Under the pieces are notes generated by a model. The model saw only the letters and a program-made list of their open reading frames with translations. It was not told the origin of the DNA and made no database searches. From Paracoccus methylarcula (GTDB taxonomy: Bacteria > Pseudomonadota > Alphaproteobacteria > Rhodobacterales > Rhodobacteraceae): DNA of 64,000 bases. This document shows positions 4,720-16,125 of this stretch, piece by piece. The DNA lies in NCBI RefSeq assembly GCF_003007735.2, contig NZ_PXNQ02000002.1, positions 372,001 through 436,000 on the forward strand, in the 5' to 3' direction. Made by a program: the position numbers and the translations under genes. Position 1 is the stretch's first letter; each line of letters opens with the position of its first letter.

Positions 4720-6578
4720 ATGGAAGATAATCTCACGCTGACGGATTCCGTCACTGACCAGGATAATCCCGCATATGAGCTGAACGGGGTATTCGCGGTT
4801 ACCAGCGCCAAGGTCGGGGACGTGACCGTCGTCATCGGCGGATCGCATGATGGCGAAGGCGGGCTGAGCGCGTTCGTGCTGGACAGCGAAACCGGCGAAT
4901 TGTCGCAAACGGCGCCGAATGCCAATGTCCATGTGGACCAGCTGCGGCCCGAGGCATTGTCGGTGGTGACGACCTCGCAGGGAACCTTCCTCTACGCGGC
5001 TGGTGAGAATGACGGTCTCTGGGTATATGAGATCGACGAGAATGGCGGATTGACGCAATTGCCGTCTTCCGGGCCCGGTCAGGCAAATTATGGCAGCGAT
5101 CCCGGCGACAACAACCTGCGCAATATCGAGGCGATGACGCCGCTGACAGGCGAGGACGGGCATCAATATCTTCTGAATACCAGCATCAATGACCGCGATT
5201 TGACCTTGTGGCAGATCGCCGAAGACGGAACGCTGACCCAGGCCGAGAAGGTGGATGATGACGGAACCCTGCAAATTGACGACGTGCGCGGCGCTGATGT
5301 CGTCAATGTCGCCGGCCGGGATTTTGCAATCGTCGGTGGAGGCGAAGACGGTGTCAGCGTGTTTCACGTCGATGCCGACGGGAAATTGCAGAACAGCTAT
5401 AACATCCATGACAATCAGTCAGATGGCAGGGATGGCGAGGGTAATATCATTTCCGGAAACGGGGTTGCTGCGACCGAGTTGAACGATATCGACTGGATCA
5501 CCACGACCACGACACCATCCGGTGCGGGATATGTCTATGTGGGCGGGCAAGATAACGGAATCACGGTTTTCGGGATCGATGCCGATGGCAAGTTGTCCGT
5601 TGTCCAGAACCTGGGAAACGGGACCTACACCGATGCGCAGGGAAACGAGGTGAATATCAGTCTCGGTAACCTGCGCGGCGCAGATGTCGCCGGGTTCGGT
5701 GAGACCAGACATTGGTTGTGGGATCATACGGGGATCAGGCGCTCTATTCGTTCCAGATTGATCCGGAGAGCGGAGAACTGATATTCGCCAATAAACTTGA
5801 CGCGCAGACGGCTGACCAGGAGGCCGGTCCGGGCGTCGGCACCGTGGAATCGGTCCATGCAACGGGGACTTATCTTGTTACCGGCTCGGGTAACGATTCC
5901 CTGGATATATACAAGGCAGCGGTCTGCTATTGCAAAGGAACCATGATCCGGACCGCCCGGGGCCAAGTGCCGGTGGAAGAGCTGGAAGTCGGAGAACTCG
6001 TGGACACGCTGGACGGCGGCTTTCAACCTGTCAGGTGGATCGGGCACAGGCATTTCACGCGAGAGGATTTACGGAACAATCCAAAATTATATCCCGTGCG
6101 GATCGAGAATGGTGCGATTGGACCGCAAAACCCATCGAAAACCCTTTATGTTTCTCGCCAGCATTGTATCTACGTCAATTCAAAAATCGTTAAACGTGTA
6201 TTGGGTGTGACCGAGGCGCTGCTTCCTGCAATCAAGTTGATCGATTTGCCCGGAGTGTTTATCGATCAGGAAGTCCAGCATGTCGATTATTTCCACATTC
6301 TCCTGGATAATCATCAGGTCGTCTTCGCGAATGATCTTCCGGCCGAGTCATTATATCTGGGAGAGCAGGCACTCATTTCTCTCGGTGACGAAGCAAGGGA
6401 GGAATTGATCACGATTTTCCCCGATCTCTTCGATCCGAAGAATGAGATTCTGCTCGCAAGGCCCCGGGTTCAAAGAAAGAAGCCGATCGCCGATCTCATC
6501 AGGAAATCTCTGAAGAACAATCAAAGCCTGCTGAGAGGTGACAGCCAGCCCCGCGATGCCGGGCATGTCTCGATATGA
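4720..6578 (+). CDS. Beta-propeller plus Hint-domain protein, frameshifted near 5705
   Basis: Residues 1 to about 400 show repeated blade-like units (GGLSAFVLDSETGELSQ, DGLWVYEIDENGGLTQL, GVSVFHVDADGKLQN, GITVFGIDADGKLSV, ALYSFQIDPESGELIF), like lactonase-type propellers. The last 210 residues begin CYCKGTMIRTARGQVPVEEL and continue with a VRWIGHR block and LYVSRQHCIYV, the Hint_2 (hedgehog/intein) fold typical of Rhodobacterales secreted proteins. The reading frame breaks between 5700 and 5712. Restoring one base (for example CC to CCC at 5705) gives GETQTLVVGSYGD and a continuous product of 619 residues. Secretion by a type I system is plausible but no signal is obvious. The exact function is unknown. 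Confidence 0.75.
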
Positions 6579-6587
6579 TATGCGATA

Positions 6588-6608
6588 ACCGGGGGGTTAT
6601 CCCCCGGT
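6588..6608. terminator. Hairpin between convergent genes
   Basis: ACCGGGGG and CCCCCGGT enclose a five-base loop. The hairpin sits ten bases after the Hint gene stop and overlaps the last codons of moaA on the other strand, so it may serve both genes. No T-tract. Confidence 0.55.
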
Positions 6609-7610
6609 ATGGCTCATATGCCGGGTCATCTGGCCGGCCACCGTCTGGCGTGAATAGTCGAAATCATGGCCCTTGGGCTTGCGGGCGATGGCCGCGCGGA
6701 TGGCGTTACGCAGCGCCGCATCGTCTTCGGAGGCGCGCAGCGGCGCGCGCAGATCGGCCTGATCCTCTTGTCCGAGGCACATGTACAATTCGCCCGTGCA
6801 GGTGACGCGCACGCGGTTGCAGCTTTCACAGAAATTATGGGTCAGCGGGGTGATGAAGCCGATTTTCTGCCCGGTTTCCTGCAGGCGGACATAGCGCGCG
6901 GGTCCTCCGGTCCGTTCTGCCAGATCGAGCAGGGTGAAACGCTCGGACAACTGGGCGCGAAGATCGGTCAGCGGCCAGTATTGGTCCAGCCGGTCCTCAT
7001 TGCCGAGATCGCCCATCGGCATGACCTCGATGAAGGTCAGGTCATGACCCTCGTCACCGCACCATTTCACCAGGTCGAACAACTCCGAATCATTCACGCC
7101 CTTCAGGGCCACGGCGTTGATCTTGACCCGCAACCCCGCGGCCTGCGCGGCCTTGATCCCCTCCAGCACCTGCGGCAGGCGGCCCCAACGTGTGATTTCG
7201 GCGAATTTCCCGGCATCCAGCGTGTCGAGAGAGACATTCACCCGCCGCACGCCGCAATCGACCAGTTCGCTGGCGAAGCGGCCAAGCTGGCTGCCATTGG
7301 TGGTCAAGGTCAGCTCGTCCAGGCCCTCGCCCAGATGACGCGACATCTGCTGGAAGAACCCCATGATACCGCGCCTGACCAGCGGCTCTCCGCCGGTGAT
7401 GCGCAGCTTGCGGACTCCAAGCCCGACGAAGACCGAGCAGAGTCGGTCCAGCTCCTCCAGCGTCAGCAGCTCGGCCTTGGGCAGGAATTGCATATGCTCG
7501 GCCATGCAATAGACGCAGCGAAAGTCGCAGCGATCCGTGACCGATACCCGCAAATAGGTAATCGGCCGTGCAAATGGGTCGATAAGAGGAGGGGAAGCCG
7601 CATGGGTCAT
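6597..7610 (-). CDS. moaA: GTP 3',8-cyclase (molybdenum cofactor biosynthesis)
   Basis: Radical SAM enzyme converting GTP to 3',8-cyclo-GTP, the first step of molybdopterin synthesis. The product has 337 residues. The SAM cluster motif CxxxCxxC is at Cys28, Cys32 and Cys35; the second cluster uses C-x2-C-x13-C in [32 protein letters not shown] binds SAM, and the protein ends with the conserved Gly-Gly needed for activity. It stands alone here, without other moa genes nearby. Confidence 0.96.
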
Positions 7611-7736
7611 GGGATCAATCTAGTAATTTCGCATTTGATGCACAAGCTTCCGCCGATCACGCGACCGCTTATGGACGGCGCGAGTTGTCGCGGGCTAATC
7701 TGCGGACGAGTTCGAAATTCGAGGAGTGTCATTTCC

Positions 7737-8264
7737 ATGAGCATGTTGAAAGCCGGTTTGGCGGCAAGTCTTTCCCTGCTGGTTCTTGCTGGCTGCGATC
7801 TGTCCAGAACGGGGACGGCCACGACCGGGCGCCCGGCGCAATCCGCGAAACCGGGCGAGGTCGAGACGCAATTGTCCAGCGAACAGCTTGCTGCCGTCAC
7901 TGCGGTCACCCGCGCACCTTCGCCCCGGCCGGCTGCGCGGGCAACTCCGGCCCAGCTGGACACCACCACGGCAGAGCAGAAGGCGGCGGCTGCCAAGGCT
8001 CCGGAAACCAGCGAGGTCAAACTGGGCACCACCGTCGCCTCGCTCGGGAACCCGACCGAGGGTGGGTTCTGGATCAAGACCCCGCTGGTCAAGGCGCGTG
8101 GCGTCGGCCGGATCCGGAATCCCGAGAACGGCAAATCCGCCAAGGTCGATCTGATTCCGCTGGATGCCCCGGCTAGCGGCGGCAGCCAGGTCTCGTTGCC
8201 GGCCCTGCAACTGATCGGGGTGTCGCTGACCGATCTGCCGGTGATCGAAGTGTTCAAATCCTGA
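7737..8264 (+). CDS. Conserved Rhodobacterales lipoprotein
   Basis: A 175-residue protein with a lipoprotein signal peptide (hydrophobic run then LVLAGC, lipid on Cys20 or so), a low-complexity Ala/Pro/Thr linker, and a compact C-terminal domain (LGTTVASLGNPTEGGFWIKT, then ARGVGRIRNPENGKSAKVDL). The ATG at 7737 has GAGGAG upstream. Homologues in this order are often labelled with enzyme names that the sequence does not support. I regard it as an envelope protein of unknown function. Confidence 0.7.
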   Translation: MSMLKAGLAASLSLLVLAGCDLSRTGTATTGRPAQSAKPGEVETQLSSEQLAAVTAVTRAPSPRPAARATPAQLDTTTAEQKAAAAKAPETSEVKLGTTVASLGNPTEGGFWIKTPLVKARGVGRIRNPENGKSAKVDLIPLDAPASGGSQVSLPALQLIGVSLTDLPVIEVFKS

Positions 8265-8388
8265 CAAGGCGGGAAGAGGGGCGTTCCCGGCCCTGACCTG
8301 AATCGGCCCCGGCCGCCGCCGCAAGAAGATGGTGGCGGCAGCGGCATGTCAGCGCTAAAAGGCGGGCATAATCACTGAGGTGCCTCCG

Positions 8389-9729
8389 ATGTCACATTCC
8401 TCCGACCCGCAACCCATGACTTCCCGCCGCAGCGGCCCCTTGACCGGCGAGGCGCAGGTTCCCGGCGACAAGTCGATCAGTCATCGCGCGCTGATCCTTG
8501 GTGCCCTATCGGTCGGCGAGACGCGGATCACCGGGCTGCTCGAAGGGCAGGATGTGCTGGACACGGCCAGGGCCATGGCGGCCTTCGGAGCGCAGGTCGA
8601 ACGGCTCGGGCCGGGGGAATGGTCGGTGCATGGCGTCGGCGTGGGCGGCTTTGCCGCGCCGGAATCCGTCATCGATTGCGGCAATTCCGGAACCGGTGTG
8701 CGGCTGATCATGGGGGCGATGGCGACGACCCCGATTACCGCGACATTCACCGGCGATGCCAGCCTGTCGCGCCGCCCGATGGCGCGGGTCACGGTGCCGC
8801 TGGCGCAATTCGGCGCCGAGATCGCTGCGCGCGAGGGGGATTGCCTGCCGATCACCATCAGGGGGGCGGCGGATCCGCTGCCACTGCGCTATCGGACCCC
8901 GGTGGCCAGTGCGCAGATCAAATCGGCGGTCCTGCTGGCCGGGCTGAACGCGCCGGGCGAGACGGTAGTGATCGAGGCGGAACCGACCCGCGACCATTCC
9001 GAGCGGATGCTGGCCGGATTCGGCGCTGATATCCGGACGGAGACCACGGCAGAGGGCCATGTGATCACGCTGACCGGCCGGCCCGAGCTGCGCGCCCAGC
9101 CCGTGGCGGTGCCGCGTGATCCGTCCAGCGCCGCTTTCCCGGTGGCCGCGGCGCTGATCGTGCCGGGCTCGGCCATCCGCGTGCCCGGCGTGTCCCGCAA
9201 TCCGACGCGCGACGGGCTTTATGTCACGCTGCTCGAGATGGGCGCGGATATCCGTTTCGAGAATGAGCGCGAGGAAGGCGGAGAGCCTGTCGCCGACCTG
9301 GTCGTGCGCCACGGCCCGCTCAAGGGCGTCAGCGTGCCGCCCGAACGCGCCGCCAGCATGATCGACGAATTCCCGATCCTGTCGGTGATCGCGGCCTTTG
9401 CCGAGGGCCGGACGGTGATGAATGGCGTGGCCGAGCTGCGCGTCAAGGAAAGCGACCGCATCGACGCGATGGCGCGCGGGCTGGAGGCCAATGGCGTCAA
9501 GGTCGAGGAAACGCGGGACAGCATGACGGTTCACGGAATGGCTTCGGTGCCGGGCGGAGGCATGGCGGCTACCCATCTGGATCATCGCATCGCGATGTCC
9601 TTCCTGGTCCTCGGCCTGGCGAGCGAAGCCCCGGTCACGGTGGATGACGGCAGTCCGATCACAACCTCTTTCCCCGATTTCCTGCCGCTGATGCGGGGTT
9701 TGGGTGCTGATATCGGGAAGTCGGATTGA
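8389..9729 (+). CDS. aroA: 3-phosphoshikimate 1-carboxyvinyltransferase (EPSP synthase, class II-like)
   Basis: Shikimate pathway enzyme joining shikimate-3-phosphate and PEP. The product has 446 residues. Signatures: [55 protein letters not shown] and [17 protein letters not shown]. The wording is close to the class II (Agrobacterium CP4-like) branch. At the PEP/glyphosate site it reads GNSGTGVR, with Gly where CP4 has the tolerance-associated Ala. The ATG at 8389 is favoured by GAGG upstream; an in-frame GTG lies at 8380. Confidence 0.95.
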
Positions 9730-9757
9730 GTAAAACTTTCAGCAGGTTCCCATTGTT

Positions 9758-9775
9758 CATTACGAACATGTAATG
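9758..9775. promoter_or_regulatory. Inverted repeat upstream of the surface-lipoprotein gene
   Basis: CATTAC and GTAATG are separated by six bases. TACAAT at 9778-9783 just downstream could be a -10 element, so a regulator bound here would lie over the -35 region. The repeat does not match the Fur consensus I know. The role is inferred. Confidence 0.35.
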
Positions 9776-9834
9776 CATACAATATGGTGGTGGTTTCCGG
9801 TATGGTGCCACGATTACAGAGTGAGGATTTCTAG

Positions 9835-10440
9835 TTGAACAAGCAGAAAATGATATTGTCCGCAGTTGCGGTTCTGTCCGTTGCCGCGTGCGGCAGCGAT
9901 GGTTCTTCCGGCGGCGGTAGCGGGGGAAATACGGGCGGAAACACGGCGCCCAGCTATAATCAGCTCAGGGCGGAGGCAGGGGAATTCCTGTGGGATCATG
10001 GCCTTGTCGATGGTTTGAACCCCGATTTCACCCCGGCTCACAGGATGCCGACGAGGGGGACCGCACATTATAGCGGCGTCGGTTCCGTCAAGCTCGGTGA
10101 CGGCACTGCATCTGGCGGTGATCAGGTCCTGGGACGTGCAAGGATGACAGCGAACTTCGATGATTCCAGTGTCACCGGCACGGTTCGTAACTTCAAGGCG
10201 GCACCTGGTCATTCCACGACCGGCGGCAGCCTGGATCTGAATGGCACGATCGACAGGAACACGGTGCTCGGAAATGTCAATGGCAAGGTCAATATCGACT
10301 CGCGCAATTACAATATCAATGCTCCGATGGCCGGACGTTTCCTTGACGACGATGCCGATGCCTTCGCCGGCGTCGCCGAAGGGGTGACCGGAAAGAATGG
10401 CACTCCCTTCCTCGTGGGGATCGGCGTTGAAGATGACTAG
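9835..10440 (+). CDS. TbpB-barrel-like surface lipoprotein (putative Slam cargo)
   Basis: A 201-residue lipoprotein. It has a short signal ending SVAAC, then a Ser/Gly-rich linker (GSDGSSGGGSGG) of the kind that tethers surface lipoproteins. The second half has the pattern of TbpB-type eight-stranded barrels: GRARMTANFDDSSVTGTV, GGSLDLNGTIDRN, GNVNGKVNI, then MAGRFLDDDADAFAGVAEG. Such domains bind transferrin, haemoglobin or other ligands in known families; the ligand here is unknown. The start is TTG at 9835, preceded by GTGAGGA. The next gene is a Slam-like barrel, which fits an exported cargo. Confidence 0.72.
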   Translation: MNKQKMILSAVAVLSVAACGSDGSSGGGSGGNTGGNTAPSYNQLRAEAGEFLWDHGLVDGLNPDFTPAHRMPTRGTAHYSGVGSVKLGDGTASGGDQVLGRARMTANFDDSSVTGTVRNFKAAPGHSTTGGSLDLNGTIDRNTVLGNVNGKVNIDSRNYNINAPMAGRFLDDDADAFAGVAEGVTGKNGTPFLVGIGVEDD

Positions 10441-10450
10441 GTGATGAGAA

Positions 10451-10486
10451 CCCGCCATGTCCTAGCAGCACGCGGGGCATGGCGGG
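10451..10486 (+). terminator. Hairpin between cargo and barrel genes
   Basis: CCCGCCATG and CATGGCGGG form a nine-base-pair stem with an 18-base loop, starting ten bases after the lipoprotein stop. No T-tract is present. It may partly terminate the cargo transcript, giving more lipoprotein than transporter, or protect its 3' end. Confidence 0.5.
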
Positions 10487-10630
10487 AACATAGTTTCCAA
10501 GCTCTGGGAATATTCGCTGTGGCCTGTGGGGTCCGAGCCGGTCCCGAAGGAACTGTAAATGTTGATTTGTCTGTTGCGCTCAGTTGGTTGCATTTCCGAG
10601 GAAGCAGGGTCATTGCACCGAAAGGCTTGG

Positions 10631-11653
10631 ATGGTGACCTGCGCTGCGTTCTGCCTGTCCTTGCTTTTCGCAGGCACCGCCCAAGCGGAGGAAGAATTTC
10701 CCGGTTGGTATGCGTCGCTGATCTCCGGCTCTGATCGGCTTGCGCTCTATTCCGCCGCGCGGGCGGGGGTCGAGGGTGCCATTCCGCCATTGATTTACCG
10801 GACCGGCGGGATGCATCGCGGCGCGGCACCCCGGGTGATCGCGCGTGATGTCGACGCTCGCCCGATCCTTTACTACGCCACGAATTTCAATGGCGGCATA
10901 CCCGGCGCGCAAATCAGCCTGGGCGGACTCGATTTCACCATAGATGACGAATCGCGTGCCAAAAGCGGTATCGTCGCCGGCGCGTCTGTATCTGGCGGGC
11001 TGGTCGCCAGCTATCGCAGGGGATCGCTGCTGCGCCTTTCCTTTGGCAGTTCCGCCGAATGGCTGACCGGCGAGGGGTTGCGGCGGCAGCAGCTTGGCGT
11101 CTCGGGTTGCGGCCAGCACCATCTTGGCGGATGGACATGGCTTGACGGCTGCATCGGTGCCATCCGCGTCTGGCGCAGCTATGACAGGCATGTGTCGCAG
11201 CAGAATATCTCGCTTGGTCCGACCGTGATCTACACCGCTGGCGGCATCGACCAGCAATTCGGGCTCCGCGCCAAGCGGATATTCCACGAGGACGGACCGC
11301 AAAACGGGCTGCAAGCCGACTGGATCGGGGCTTTTTCCGGTATCGGTGCCATCAGCATCGGGCTTGAATGGGCCGAGATGCTGGAGGGAGAGAATACCAC
11401 CCTGCGCGGCATGTCACTGGGTCTTGTTCGCCCGACCGAGTTCAGTCCCGTCAAGGTCAGCCTGAACTATGACGAAACCGGCGGATACCGGCTGGCGGGC
11501 AGGGACCGCAAGGATCGCACGATCTCGTTGGGCGTGGAGATGCCCGTGACCGAAAAGATCGGTCTCGATGCGACGATCGGGCGCCGCGCTTCGACGATTG
11601 ACGCCTATGACGAAAGCTTCTGGCGCTTCAATGTCGATCTGCGGGACTGGTGA
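10631..11653 (+). CDS. Outer-membrane beta-barrel, Slam/type XI secretion-like
   Basis: A 340-residue protein with a signal peptide (MVTCAAFCLSLLFAGTAQA, cleaved before EEEFP) and then alternating amphipathic strands to the end. Blocks such as NGGIPGAQISLGGLDFTIDD, AKSGIVAGASVSGG, HHLGGWTWLDGC and the closing GRDRKDRTISLGVEM ... GRRASTIDAYDESFWRF resemble the barrel of surface lipoprotein assembly modulators (DUF560). The periplasmic TPR domain usual in Slam proteins is absent or very short. The ATG at 10631 is taken because it starts the signal peptide. Adjacency to a TbpB-like lipoprotein supports a lipoprotein surface-display role; this is inference. Confidence 0.6.
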   Translation: MVTCAAFCLSLLFAGTAQAEEEFPGWYASLISGSDRLALYSAARAGVEGAIPPLIYRTGGMHRGAAPRVIARDVDARPILYYATNFNGGIPGAQISLGGLDFTIDDESRAKSGIVAGASVSGGLVASYRRGSLLRLSFGSSAEWLTGEGLRRQQLGVSGCGQHHLGGWTWLDGCIGAIRVWRSYDRHVSQQNISLGPTVIYTAGGIDQQFGLRAKRIFHEDGPQNGLQADWIGAFSGIGAISIGLEWAEMLEGENTTLRGMSLGLVRPTEFSPVKVSLNYDETGGYRLAGRDRKDRTISLGVEMPVTEKIGLDATIGRRASTIDAYDESFWRFNVDLRDW

Positions 11654-11670
11654 TCCCGTGAGAAACGGCG

Positions 11671-13566
11671 TCAGCCTTGCTGCCGCGGATAGCCTGCATC
11701 ACGCAGCGCCGCGGCGATTTCGTCGAGTATGACAGGATCGTCGATGGTGGCGGGGGCGCTGACCTCTTCGCCATTGGCGAGCTTTACCATTGTCGCCCGC
11801 AGGATCTTGCCCGAACGTGTCTTGGGTAACCGCTCCACGACGCAGGCCGTTCTGAACGCCGCGACGGGGCCGATCCTGTCGCGGACCAGCGCGACCACCT
11901 CGCGCGCGATCTGGTCATTGCCGGTCTCGACCCTCCGCTTGAGGCATAGAAAACCAAGGGGCACCTCCCCCTTGAGCGCATCTGCCACGCCGATGACCGC
12001 GCATTCCGCGACCGCCGGATGCGAGGCCAGAACCTCTTCCATCGCGCCGGTGGACAGGCGGTGTCCCGCGACATTGATCACGTCATCGGTGCGCGCCATG
12101 ATATAGAGATAGCCATCCTCGTCGACATAGCCCGCATCGCCGGTTTCGTAATAGCCGGGGAATCGCTCCAGATAGGCCTTGCGAAACCGCGCTTCGGCAT
12201 TCCATAGCGAGGGCAGGGTGCCCGGTGGCAGGGGCAGCTTCACGGCGATGGAGCCCAGGGTTCCCGTCGGGACCGGTGTCCCCGCATCATCGAGGATTTG
12301 CACGTCATAGCCCGGCATCGCCACCGACGGGCTGCCTTTCTTGACCGGCATATGCTCGATCCCGAAGGGATTGGCGGCGATGGACCAGCCGGTCTCGGTC
12401 TGCCACCAATGATCCAGCACCGGCAGATGCAGGCGATCTTCCAGCCATTGGATCGTGTCGGGATCGGCGCGTTCACCGGCAAGGAAGACCGCCTGCAGGC
12501 TGGAAAGGTCGTAATTCCCGATCAACTCGCCCTCCGGATCCTCGCGTTTCACCGCGCGGATCGCGGTCGGGGCGGTGAAGAAGCTCTTGACCCCATGCTC
12601 GCCGATCACCCGCCAGATGGTGCCCGCATCCGGCGTGCCCACCGGCTTGCCCTCGAAGACGACGGTGGTCGCGCCGGTGATCAGCGGTGCATAGCAGATA
12701 TAGCTGTGTCCCACGACCCAACCGACATCCGAGGCGGCCCAGAACACGTCTCCGGCATTGATGCCGTAGATATTTCCCATCGACCAGTTCAGCGCGACGA
12801 GATGCCCGGCCGTGTGGCGGATGACGCCCTTGGGCTGTCCGGTCGTGCCTGAAGTGTAAAGGATATAGGCCGGGTGGTTGCCCTCGACGGCGACGCAATC
12901 GGCGGGCATGACCCCTTGCTGGAATGCCTGCCATTCGTGATCGCGTTCCGGGATCAGGTCGGCGATGGCCTGCTCCCGCTGCAGGATCACGCAGAAATCG
13001 GGCTTATGCGCGGCGCTGTCGATGGCCGCGTCCAGCAAGGGCTTGTAATGAACGATGCGTCCCGGCTCCAGCCCGCAGGAGGCGGCGATGATGGCGCGCG
13101 GCTTGGCGTCATCGATACGGACGGCCAGTTCCCGGGCGGCAAAGCCCCCGAATACGACCGAATGGATGGCGCCGATCCGAGTGCAGGCGAGCATTGCCTC
13201 CAACGCCTCGGGGACCATCGGCATATAGATGATGACACGGTCGCCCTTGCCGACCCCCCTGGCGCGCAACGCACCGGCAAGCCGGGCCACCCGGTCGCGC
13301 AGGTCACGGAAAGTCAGGCTCTGGCGCGTTCCGGTGATCGGGCTGTCATGGATGATGGCCGGCTGGTCGCCCCGGCCAGCCTCGACATGGCGGTCAACCG
13401 CATTCCAGCAGGTATTGACCAGGGCATCCGCGAACCATTCGCCCGCCGGTCCCTGATCGAACCAGGCGCGGCTTGGTGGGCGCTCCCAATCGATCTGCCG
13501 CGCCGCATCCATCCAGAACCCTTCCGGATCCGATTTCCACGAGTCGTAAACCTGCCGATACTCCAT
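11671..13566 (-). CDS. prpE: Propionyl-CoA synthetase
   Basis: ANL-superfamily acyl-CoA synthetase activating propionate (or acetate) through an acyl-adenylate. The product has 631 residues. Seen in order: the ACAS N-terminal segment (YRQVYDSWKSDPEGFW), the P-loop YTSGTTGQPKGVIR, the HWWQTETGW motif, GYYETGD, and the C-terminal KTRSGKILR bearing the acetylation-regulated catalytic lysine. The FWMDAARQIDW start and overall length fit PrpE better than Acs, whose N-terminus is longer. A GGGAGGGG ribosome-binding site precedes the ATG. With PccAB and methylmalonyl-CoA mutase encoded nearby, it supplies propionyl-CoA. Confidence 0.88.
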   Translation of the reverse strand: MEYRQVYDSWKSDPEGFWMDAARQIDWERPPSRAWFDQGPAGEWFADALVNTCWNAVDRHVEAGRGDQPAIIHDSPITGTRQSLTFRDLRDRVARLAGALRARGVGKGDRVIIYMPMVPEALEAMLACTRIGAIHSVVFGGFAARELAVRIDDAKPRAIIAASCGLEPGRIVHYKPLLDAAIDSAAHKPDFCVILQREQAIADLIPERDHEWQAFQQGVMPADCVAVEGNHPAYILYTSGTTGQPKGVIRHTAGHLVALNWSMGNIYGINAGDVFWAASDVGWVVGHSYICYAPLITGATTVVFEGKPVGTPDAGTIWRVIGEHGVKSFFTAPTAIRAVKREDPEGELIGNYDLSSLQAVFLAGERADPDTIQWLEDRLHLPVLDHWWQTETGWSIAANPFGIEHMPVKKGSPSVAMPGYDVQILDDAGTPVPTGTLGSIAVKLPLPPGTLPSLWNAEARFRKAYLERFPGYYETGDAGYVDEDGYLYIMARTDDVINVAGHRLSTGAMEEVLASHPAVAECAVIGVADALKGEVPLGFLCLKRRVETGNDQIAREVVALVRDRIGPVAAFRTACVVERLPKTRSGKILRATMVKLANGEEVSAPATIDDPVILDEIAAALRDAGYPRQQG

Positions 13567-13660
13567 GTCGCGCCCCTCCCTGTATTTGGGAAAGTGTTAC
13601 GCGATCAGGTCAGTCCGCTGCAACTCTGCTTCTTCTTTGCCCAAATACCTTGCAGGGGGT

Positions 13661-13682
13661 CCGGGGGACGCAAGGCCCCCGG
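13661..13682. terminator. Hairpin after malic enzyme, copy of an intergenic repeat
   Basis: CCGGGGG and CCCCCGG form a seven-base-pair stem with an eight-base loop. It lies in the gap between the end of maeB and the start of prpE, both on the minus strand. The preceding CTTCTTTGCCCAAATACC and the hairpin together resemble the block at 466-548. Confidence 0.5.
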
Positions 13683-13717
13683 CCATCGCGGGACGCAATC
13701 GTGATCCTGCCGATCCC

Positions 13718-15996
13718 TCAACTGTAATGCGCGACCGGTGTCCCGGCGAGTACGCTCATGTTCAACAACCCGCGCGTGGTGATCGAGGGGGTCACGATAT
13801 GGGCGCGGTTGCCCATGCCCATCAGGATCGGCCCGACCTCCAGCCCGTTGGCGCAGATCTTCAGCGCGTTGCGCACGCCGGATGCGGCATCGGTGCCGGG
13901 AAAGACCACGATATTCGCCGCGCCTTCCAGCCGCGATCCGGGGAAGATGCGCTCGCGCAACTCCGGGTCGAGCGCCGCGTCGACATGCATCTCTCCATCA
14001 TACATGAAGTCGGGTTTCCGGGCCTCCAGCAATTCCATCGCCGCGCGCATCTTGCGTCCGGTATAGCTGTCCAGATTGCCGAATTGCGAATGGCTGCACA
14101 GCGCGATCCGCGGCGTGACGCCAAAGCGGCGGACATGGCGGGCCGCGCCGATGACGGTTTCGGCCACCTGCTGCGGAGTCGGATCGTTATGGCATTGCGT
14201 GTCGGCGACGAAAAGCGGGCCATTCTCCATGATGATCATCGACAGCGCACCCACCGGCTGCAACCCGTCGCGGGCCAGGATCTGGCGGATATATTGCAGA
14301 TGCCATGAATATTGACCGAAGGTTCCGCAGATCAGGCTGTCGGCCTCTTCGCGATGCACCATGACCGCGCCGATGGCCGTGGTATTGGTGCGCATGATGG
14401 CGCGGGCGATGTCGGGGCTGACCCCGCGCCGTGCCATCAACTGGTGATAGGTCTCCCAGTAATCGCGATAGCGCGGGTCGTTTTCGGGGTTCACGATCTC
14501 GAAATCCCGCTCGGGCCGGATCGGCAGGCCGGCGCGCTCGGCACGCATCGAGATCACCTCGGGGCGGCCGATCAGGATCGGCACATCGGTGGTCTCCTCC
14601 AGCATCGCATTGGCGGCGCGCAGCACGCGTTCGTCCTCGCCCTCGGCAAAGACGATGCGGCGGGTGGCGGTGGCGGCGGCCTCGAAGACCGGGCGCATGA
14701 TCAGCGCCGAGCGGAAGACCGAGCCATCCAGCCGGTGCTTGTAGGCATCCAGATCCTCGATCGGGCGGGTTGCCACCCCGGTTTCCATCGCGGCGCGGGC
14801 CACGGCCGAGGACACGACGCCGATCAGGCGCGGGTCGAAGGGCTTGGGGATCAGGTAGTCGGGGCCGAAGGTCAGGGTCTCGCCGCGATAGGCGGCAGCG
14901 GCCTCGGCCGCCGTGGTGGCGCGCGCCAGCGCCGCGATGCCTTCGACGCAGGCGATCTCCATCTCGTCATTGATGGTGGTCGCGCCGACATCCAGCGCGC
15001 CCCGGAAGATGAAGGGGAAACACAGGACGTTATTGACCTGGTTGGGAAAATCGCTGCGCCCGGTGGCGATGATCGCATCCGGGGCGACGGCGCGGGCATC
15101 GTCGGGCAGGATCTCGGGCGTGGGATTGGCCAGCGCGAAGATGATCGGCTGCTTGCCCATCTTCTGCACCATTTCGGGTGTCAGACGCCCGGCCCCGACA
15201 GGCCAAGGAACAGGTCGGCCCCCTCGATCACCTCGCCGAGCCCCCGCAGGTCGCTGGCCTGCGCATAGGCGGCTTTCTGCGGGTTCATGTCCTCGACCCG
15301 GCCTTCATAGACCAGCCCGTTGATATCGCAGAGCCAGACATTCTCGCGCTTGACGCCCAGTTTCAGCAGCATGTCGAGACAGGCGATTCCCGCCGCCCCG
15401 CCGCCGGTCGAGACGACCTTGATATCGGCGAAGCTCTTGCCCGCCACGCGCAGCGCATTGGTGGCGGCGGCACCCACGACGATGGCAGTGCCGTGCTGGT
15501 CGTCGTGGAAGACCGGGATATTCATTCGCTCGCGGCACAGTTTCTCGACGATGAAACAGTCCGGGGCCTTGATGTCTTCGAGATTGATCGCGCCGAAGGT
15601 CGGCTCGAGCGAGCAGACGATCTCTGCCAGTTTCTCGGGATCGGATTCGTTCACCTCGATATCGAAACAGTCGATATTGGCGAATTTCTTGAACAGGACC
15701 GCCTTGCCCTCCATGACCGGCTTGGAGGCCGCCGCGCCGATATTGCCCAGCCCCAGCACCGCGGTTCCGTTCGTTACCACGGCCACGAGATTGCCGCGTG
15801 AAGTGTAGCGGCTGGCATTGGCCGGATCGGCCTTGATCTCCAGGCAGGCCTCGGCGACGCCGGGCGAATAGGCGCGGGACAGGTCGCGGCCATTGGCCAG
15901 GGGCTTGGTCGCCCGGATCTCCAGCTTACCCGGACGCGGGAATTCGTGATAATCTAGTGCCGATTGACGGGCGCTGTCCTGCCTGCGGTCGTTCAT
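13718..15996 (-). CDS. maeB: NADP-dependent malic enzyme with phosphotransacetylase-like domain, frameshifted near 15184
   Basis: Decarboxylates malate to pyruvate, yielding NADPH. The N-terminal malic domain (residues 1-270) shows [12 protein letters not shown], the NAD(P) region [16 protein letters not shown], and ends [14 protein letters not shown] before a TGA. The frame then changes, and [20 protein letters not shown] continues the same domain, followed by the large-subunit phosphotransacetylase-like domain ([14 protein letters not shown], then [16 protein letters not shown]). Restoring one base near 15184 gives LTPEMVQKM and a 759-residue protein, the normal hybrid length. I treat the break as probable sequence error. 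Confidence 0.88.
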
Positions 15997-16125
15997 ATTT
16001 GCCCCCTCCGATTTCAGGTTAGTTCACCGTTAAACCATTTCTGCGGCGGGGAACAGGAGGGTTCGGCTTGCGTTGGCACCGGATGACGCGCAAAACTTGA
16101 AACAGGACAGGAAGCGGGGAAAGCG

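Follow-up and report, generated by a model that had tools for sequence, protein, structure and literature searches.

A Slam-like outer-membrane barrel lacking a tetratricopeptide repeat domain and its paired TbpB-type lipoprotein in Paracoccus methylarcula: a candidate minimal type-11-like secretion unit

The DNA studied here (the window: 64,000 nucleotides of Paracoccus methylarcula, family Rhodobacteraceae, positions 372,001 to 436,000 of contig NZ_PXNQ02000002.1 in assembly GCF_003007735.2) carries on its forward strand a gene for a small lipoprotein followed by a gene for an outer-membrane barrel protein related to the Slam proteins of the type 11 secretion system (T11SS) and devoid of their tetratricopeptide repeat (TPR) domain (table 1). 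We consider it probable that these two genes make up a minimal, TPR-less type-11-like secretion unit working like a T11SS pair, with the lipoprotein as candidate cargo and the barrel as its putative transporter. Slam/type 11 secretion as such is already known; the TPR-less variant is what is new here.

Table 1. Features of the lipoprotein–barrel locus (positions in the window).
Feature	Position	Strand	Description or basis
Lipoprotein gene (cargo candidate)	9835..10440	+	201 amino acids, one predicted TbpB-type eight-strand barrel
Lipoprotein signal peptide and lipid-acceptor Cys19 (SVAAC)	9835..9891	+	read from translation
Gly/Ser-rich tether after Cys19	9892..9948	+	translation; low model confidence
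Eight-strand barrel domain of lipoprotein (residues 76-200)	10060..10434	+	AlphaFold2 model
Intergenic stretch with strong hairpin right after lipoprotein stop	10441..10630	+	RNA fold
TPR-less Slam-like outer-membrane barrel	10631..11653 (longest open reading frame from 10559)	+	hhalign, AlphaFold2
Likely Sec signal peptide of barrel protein (residues 25-43 of the 364-amino-acid frame)	10631..10687	+	translation
Short N-terminal helices (residues 49-55, 59-69, 75-81) where Slams have the TPR domain	10703..10801	+	AlphaFold2
14-strand barrel (residues 92-361)	10832..11641	+	AlphaFold2 DSSP
Slam-like signature NxNGG...LGGLxFxID between strands 1 and 2 (residues 109-129)	10883..10945	+	alignment A1
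Cys184 and Cys198 of adjacent strands 4 and 5, characteristic of the TPR-less clade	11108..11152	+	barrel alignment

The lipobox of the upstream protein, SVAAC with Cys19, is followed directly by the tether GSDGSSGGGSGGNTGGN, both read from the sequence; among 17 aligned lipoproteins the cysteine is invariant (17/17), and the tether is Gly/Ser-rich in the relatives too. The Pfam family TbpB_B_D matches residues 71-181 above threshold (E 4.6e-9; 37.3 bits, gathering score 26), and the NCBIfam model slam_lipo (NF041636) was matched far under its equivalog cut-off (33 bits against 80, E 6.7e-8). A first-pass annotation made from the letters alone had described a small lipoprotein with a Ser/Gly tether and a TbpB-type barrel domain, and both parts of that description are borne out, the latter by the profile check just given. 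An AlphaFold2 model built on the 17 aligned lipoproteins (predicted local distance difference test, pLDDT, 83.0; predicted template modelling score, pTM, 0.76) has a disordered tether (pLDDT under 50 at residues 29-35), one helix (41-54) and eight strands (76-87, 98-107, 112-122, 130-140, 143-154, 157-170, 176-184 and 191-200). When this model was compared with the PDB, Foldseek placed TbpB at the top (E 1.6e-6), its best 50 matches comprising TbpB, LbpB, fHbp, NHBA, HpuA and one haemophore; VIA-align matched TbpB (3ve2_B) at Z 14.6 (root-mean-square deviation, rmsd, 5.5; 148 aligned) and fHbp (7nru) at Z 13.7 (rmsd 2.3; 119 aligned), with TbpB, LbpB, fHbp, NHBA, haemophilins and an entry titled ‘Surface Lipoprotein’ as its best 50. 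The fold of the cargo candidate is therefore predicted to be of the TbpB/fHbp type. The eight-strand barrel is alike in fHbp, TbpB, the C-terminal domain of NHBA and the haemophilin HphA (VIA-align Z 12.8-14.6 among the best 50), a group of T11SS cargo, known or predicted, and of proteins related to it in fold; unlike that group, the window lipoprotein consists of one barrel with a short helix and has no handle domain, and no TonB receptor was recognised by eye among the open reading frames listed for window positions 6000-16000, for which no profile was run. Both fHbp and TbpB are lipid-anchored as well.

For the downstream protein, the sole Pfam match is a weak one to OMP_b-brl (E 0.072). 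AlphaFold2, run on an alignment of the 19 longest TPR-less barrel proteins with the window included (A1; the 146-amino-acid fragment L100 was left out), predicts 14 long strands and a small hairpin (118-127) after strand 1 (pLDDT 89.3, pTM 0.81), preceded by short helices between residues 40 and 81, with a block of pLDDT at least 93 over residues 51-90. TPR profiles do not match the window barrel protein at E up to 10, one TPR_4 match (E 0.085) appears across the 19 A1 members, and hhalign of the barrel family against the TPR region of 21 SlipAM proteins gives no match (prob 0.6, E 0.09). In VIA-align the barrel model is closest to CymA (Z 17.2, rmsd 3.7, 260 aligned), followed by BamA (15.5), CdiB (15.3) and OmpG (15.2); CymA and OmpG have 14 strands, BamA and CdiB 16. 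Foldseek puts the autotransporter NalP first (E 6.3e-5, TM 0.27). The PDB fold search with the predicted model supports a barrel of this size rather than a particular family; the PDB matches listed for it include no Slam structure, which does not rule one out. At the sequence level, A1 finds no PDB chain at E up to 10, and the best 60 of the 249 chains matched by A2, the corresponding alignment of Slam-type proteins introduced below, are TPR and other helical-repeat proteins.

Relatives of the barrel were collected by searching 295 genomes of the bacterial family, 19 of which, the window genome included, gave matches. Of the 20 loci fetched, the iterated barrel profile picked up 19, and it picked up the window as well; locus L101 (genome G177, E 5e-4 in the first search) was missed by it and is excluded from the family co-occurrence counts. 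For comparison, A2 comprises 21 TPR-bearing SlipAM proteins of the same family, drawn from 30 SlipAM loci (six loci were not entered, one had no open reading frame, and two had an overlong or oddly ending frame), and the control sets hold 15 FadL sequences from 17 loci and Porin_4 sequences from 18 of 25 loci; gene counts for SlipAM use 28 of the 30 loci.

Because the SlipAM/DUF560 profile PF04575 did not match directly, the likeness to Slam proteins was shown by profile–profile comparison. With hhalign, A1 aligns to A2 along the whole barrel (prob 98.8, E 1.3e-16), and equally well when the barrel parts alone are compared (prob 98.8, E 9.9e-17, 251 columns); a profile of 39 TPR-less barrels against SlipAM gives E 3.8e-17. 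The signature NxNGG...LGGLxFxID has a similar motif in the TPR-bearing SlipAM proteins, and once it is removed the match still reaches E 8.5e-10 over 212 columns. The controls for A1 gave 0.021 (FadL), 0.0026 (Porin_4), 0.0021 (reversed SlipAM) and 0.076 to 0.67 (five column shuffles), and the 39-sequence profile gave 0.0012 against Porin_4. Judged by these profile comparisons, the barrel shares ancestry with the Slam/DUF560 barrels. What the first-pass annotation had said of this protein fares accordingly: the 14 strands expected are those predicted, the lack of a clear periplasmic TPR domain is confirmed, the check for N-terminal helices having found short ones only, and the resemblance to SlipAM/DUF560 stands in the profile–profile comparison (E 1e-16) and not as a direct Pfam match, neither for the window nor for the other 18 A1 members. 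With the Slam/T11SS outer-membrane proteins (DUF560, PF04575; Slam1, Slam2, NilB, HrpB) the TPR-less barrels share a homologous 14-strand barrel, an NxNxG...GG.F.I-like signature, a similar C-terminal end and a gene adjoining a TbpB_B_D lipoprotein gene; unlike Slams, they have no TPR domain, no direct PF04575 match and two cysteines specific to their clade, and their frames measure about 345-400 amino acids, against 375-495 for the 21 SlipAM proteins compared. We do not claim strict membership of the Slam family, because the profile match and the TPR domain were both looked for and neither was found.

A tree of 39 TPR-less and 26 SlipAM barrels inferred with FastTree splits the two sets cleanly with a support of 1.0; it is unrooted and does not give the order in which the two forms arose. 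Cys184 and Cys198 are each present in 38 of the 39 TPR-less barrels and in none of the 26 SlipAM barrels. A degenerate Slam, that is a decayed T11SS protein which has lost both its TPR domain and its function, would account for the absence of that domain, but the separation of the 39 barrels in the tree, their clade-specific cysteines, the conserved pairing with a lipoprotein described below and purifying selection on the barrel gene (dN/dS about 0.22 between the window and its close relative L152, whose barrel protein is 82% identical) make such decay very improbable. The lipoprotein gene is under purifying selection too (dN/dS 0.25-0.32 in the same comparison). At the level of the class, a search of 385 genomes with A1, which scored at most five candidates per genome and can have missed relatives, gave seven weak matches besides the window; six lie outside the bacterial family. 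By Pfam, five of the seven are SlipAM proteins, and TPRs are present in a sixth. A search of genome contigs with short peptide patterns from the barrel protein recovered no relative, probably because such patterns are too strict at 20-30% identity.

In line with the expectation that the cargo would be encoded next to its transporter, the pairing is conserved beyond chance. Applying one lipoprotein rule alike to barrels and controls (directly upstream, same strand), we found a lipoprotein at 19 of 21 barrels of the genus and 10 of 19 further barrels of the family, against 2/142 other long open reading frames in the same loci, 0/15 FadL genes and 9/28 SlipAM genes. The difference between barrels and other frames is highly significant (Fisher 2.5e-22), with the reservation that the loci are not independent and, being related by descent, lead the pairing p-values to overstate the case. 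An earlier, stricter rule had given 18/21 genus and 5/19 family barrels, 0/15 FadL and 10/28 SlipAM genes; the looser one was adopted because the stricter missed lipoproteins visible by eye. In the family, 18 other loci have a barrel longer than 300 amino acids; by eye, 14 of them show a lipoprotein-type neighbour, 11 upstream, one downstream and two convergent.

The two components also tend to occur in the same genomes. Among 125 genomes of the genus, the barrel was found in 22, TbpB_B_D in 15 and SlipAM in three (one a fragment), and barrel and TbpB_B_D occur together in 13 (p 2.9e-10). Each of the 13, the window genome included, has a TbpB_B_D match upstream of a barrel match, on its strand and no more than 354 bases away, and by coordinates such upstream neighbours account for 14 of the 20 TbpB_B_D matches in the genus. 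Neighbourhoods in the genus were fetched for 20 of the 25 places other than the window; of the remaining five, three were judged from coordinates and two went unused. At G299:C4:34500-38024, a 147-amino-acid frame that matches only the C-terminal end of SlipAM is no more than about 3 kb away from a TPR-less barrel match and its TbpB_B_D neighbour. Among family genomes without SlipAM, barrel and TbpB_B_D again co-occur (7/15 vs 9/182, p 2.5e-5), and the link is weaker across all 295 (8/18 vs 42/277, p 0.004). The genome of P. methylarcula itself has one TbpB_B_D match and, at 94.8% completeness, no match to SlipAM or TPR_Slam; SlipAM is found in 98 of the 295 family genomes.

Eleven loci carry, in place of the TbpB-type gene, a lipoprotein frame of 280 to 346 amino acids beside the barrel (L085, L087, L088, L089, L094, L096, L163, L164, L166, L167 and L168; six in alignment A3 and five from the genus). 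These proteins form a second putative cargo family of about 280-350 amino acids with the motif YTT.HNGY.RVR; Pfam, run on the six A3 members, does not recognise it save for a single hint (HphA_C, E 0.017). When a profile of the 11 was compared with the TbpB-type one, the two aligned over 99 columns (prob 93.8, E 1.7e-7; reversed control 0.14); in the opposite direction the best match covered 21 columns at the signal peptide (prob 90.4). Kinship of the second family with the TbpB-type lipoproteins is, on these profiles, likely, not proven. Relatives of the TPR-less barrel type occur in 20 public plasmid records, and five of the six inspected show the pair: the second cargo type accompanies the barrel in C. 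sphaeroides 2.4.1 and EBL0706, Gemmobacter fulvus and Alloyangia pacifica, and the TbpB type does so in Paracoccus liaowanqingii. On the Ketogulonicigenium plasmid the gene directly upstream of the barrel matches neither cargo profile, and about 1.2 kb upstream there is a gene annotated as ‘transferrin-binding protein-like solute binding protein’. The second-type pair of Cereibacter sphaeroides 2.4.1 lies on its plasmid pC, with DQL45_RS21515 as the lipoprotein gene and DQL45_RS21510 as the barrel gene; the two overlap by 4 bases and are annotated as ‘viral aspartic protease’ and ‘hypothetical protein’. Names of this kind are misleading for both members of the pair, the records calling the lipoproteins ‘viral aspartic protease’, ‘hypothetical protein’ or ‘transferrin-binding protein-like solute binding protein’ and the barrels ‘lipocalin’ or ‘hypothetical protein’.

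Several results weigh against a Slam-like secretion unit. The barrel protein has no NCBIfam match, the Slam models included, and PF04575 is absent from the window barrel at E up to 10 and from all 19 A1 members at E up to 1. Porin_4 is matched by 4 of the 19 A1 members (best E 7e-5) and the LbtU porin model by 2 of the 19 (best E 0.005), making a pore function possible. Unrelated barrels can themselves align in hhalign, FadL with Porin_4 at 6.5e-6 in the worst case and SlipAM with Porin_4 at 4.3e-4. Ten of the 40 barrels have no same-strand lipoprotein directly upstream either by rule or by eye (seven of the 18 longer than 300 amino acids and the one 146-amino-acid fragment in the family set, two of 21 in the genus set). 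Among the ten, a lipoprotein is downstream or convergent in three cases, and one barrel sits at a contig edge. Barrel and SlipAM are not significantly exclusive in the 295 genomes (3/18 vs 95/277, p 0.19), and 72 of the 96 TbpB_B_D matches in that sample lie more than 3 kb from both SlipAM and a P0002-like (window-type) barrel.

Some of these observations would suit a receptor pair, in which the lipoprotein is a surface partner that binds a ligand and reaches the surface by another route and the barrel is a passive import pore, after the model of TbpB with TbpA or of the LbtU-type porins, which take up siderophore. The weak Porin_4 and LbtU matches point that way, as do the best structural neighbours, CymA and OmpG, which are uptake pores, and the lack of either transporter within 3 kb of most TbpB_B_D genes in the family sample. 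Yet the homology to Slams extends over the whole barrel at E 1e-16, against 0.0026 for the Porin_4 profile (prob 11.7); the window barrel itself has no Pfam Porin_4 match, and on this basis it is not assigned to that family. The Slam-like signature is conserved as well, and the other export route that a receptor pair calls for is unnamed in a genome without a SlipAM match, so that we regard a receptor pair as unlikely.

Returning to the secretion unit, we envisage that the lipoprotein would be exported by Sec, lipidated at Cys19 and carried across the periplasm in an unfolded state, a Skp-type chaperone probably assisting; the genome contains an OmpH/Skp-type chaperone gene. The downstream 14-strand barrel, without a TPR domain, would then let the polypeptide through the outer membrane, and outside the cell the C-terminal part would fold into its TbpB/fHbp-like eight-strand barrel, with the Gly/Ser tether anchoring it to the membrane. 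Transport and its direction, the surface exposure and the chaperone step are what we infer from the homology and the gene pairing. Published work on the known system offers some points of comparison. In PMC5449769, all 832 Slams are stated to have an N-terminal domain, none consisting of DUF560 only. Slam1 liposomes take up TbpB, with Skp raising the yield (PMC9090332), and in NilB the colonisation defects caused by small TPR deletions were ameliorated by deleting the whole N-terminal domain, according to PMC8406197. The Slam1 and NilB results fit, by analogy, a bare barrel acting as a translocon without showing it. The authors of PMC8406197 propose a role for the TPR domain, which would favour a split Slam whose barrel works only together with a TPR protein supplied in trans; the absence of a TPR_Slam match from the genome, where as beside the pairs other TPR proteins were not searched for, speaks against it, and we hold such an arrangement to be improbable. 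The marine ‘cluster 3’ T11SS of Rhodobacteraceae and Roseobacteraceae (PMC12282271) comes from the same bacterial families, and its predicted cargo is a lipoprotein with a C-terminal eight-strand barrel; it differs in using a DUF560 protein as transporter and in having few cargo genes close by (0.21 per transporter). TPR-less barrels are not mentioned in the available part of that paper, the words TPR and tetratricopeptide being absent from its main text, and among the matches listed by full-text searches of open-licence papers no title or abstract opening reports TPR-less DUF560 relatives.

As for the details of the locus, the lipoprotein frame begins with a TTG preceded by GAGGA, the TTG being conserved in L152. 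The barrel frame is listed as 10559-11653, and a signal-peptide-like MVTCAA.CL begins at the ATG at 10631; because the signal-peptide-like sequence from there is kept in L152, this ATG appears the likelier start. A hairpin at 10438-10510 is predicted to be stable (-31.9 kcal/mol, z -3.43), and the matching stretch of L152 has no hairpin (z +0.66); because it is not kept in L152, we do not claim an attenuation model for it. A scan for consensus promoters found no site upstream of the pair on its own strand. Two elements upstream of the lipoprotein gene are common to the window (9754-9783) and the same place in L152: a conserved CGAACATGTAATGCATACAAT block and, at 9754-9768, the inverted repeat TGTTC-N5-GAACA. 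In L156, L157, L158 and L160 the lipoprotein gene is preceded by the palindrome TTCACCC-N4-GGGTGAA, then CTGTAATCGG or a near-identical sequence; the palindrome is a possible operator. The idea of a common regulatory motif for the pairs was dropped, as none runs through all the loci compared. The pair is flanked by genes that we take, from their sequences, to be aroA-like and acyl-CoA synthetase-like, and a few kb away (5712-6578) lies a protein with what is presumably an intein-like Hint pattern (CYCKGTMIRTARGQVPVEELEVGELV). In L161, L162, L165 and L084 the lipoprotein gene is immediately preceded by a small gene that, from its pattern, we assume to be PepSY-like.

Beyond the single locus, we lean towards a distinct minimal T11SS class in Rhodobacterales, whose whole outer-membrane translocon would be a bare 14-strand barrel carrying a cysteine pair. 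It would serve two lipoprotein cargo families, the single TbpB/fHbp-type barrels and the longer proteins of about 280-350 amino acids. If this is true, the TPR domain would be an add-on and not part of the transport mechanism. The TPR-less clade with its paired cargo would represent a very small candidate translocon, bearing on how Slam barrels move lipoproteins and on what the TPR domain does, and the presence of a pair in C. sphaeroides 2.4.1, a common and harmless laboratory strain that is easy to work with, makes the need for that domain testable. For the family, the clade supplies candidate transporters for some of the Rhodobacteraceae lipoproteins that a SlipAM profile search leaves without one.

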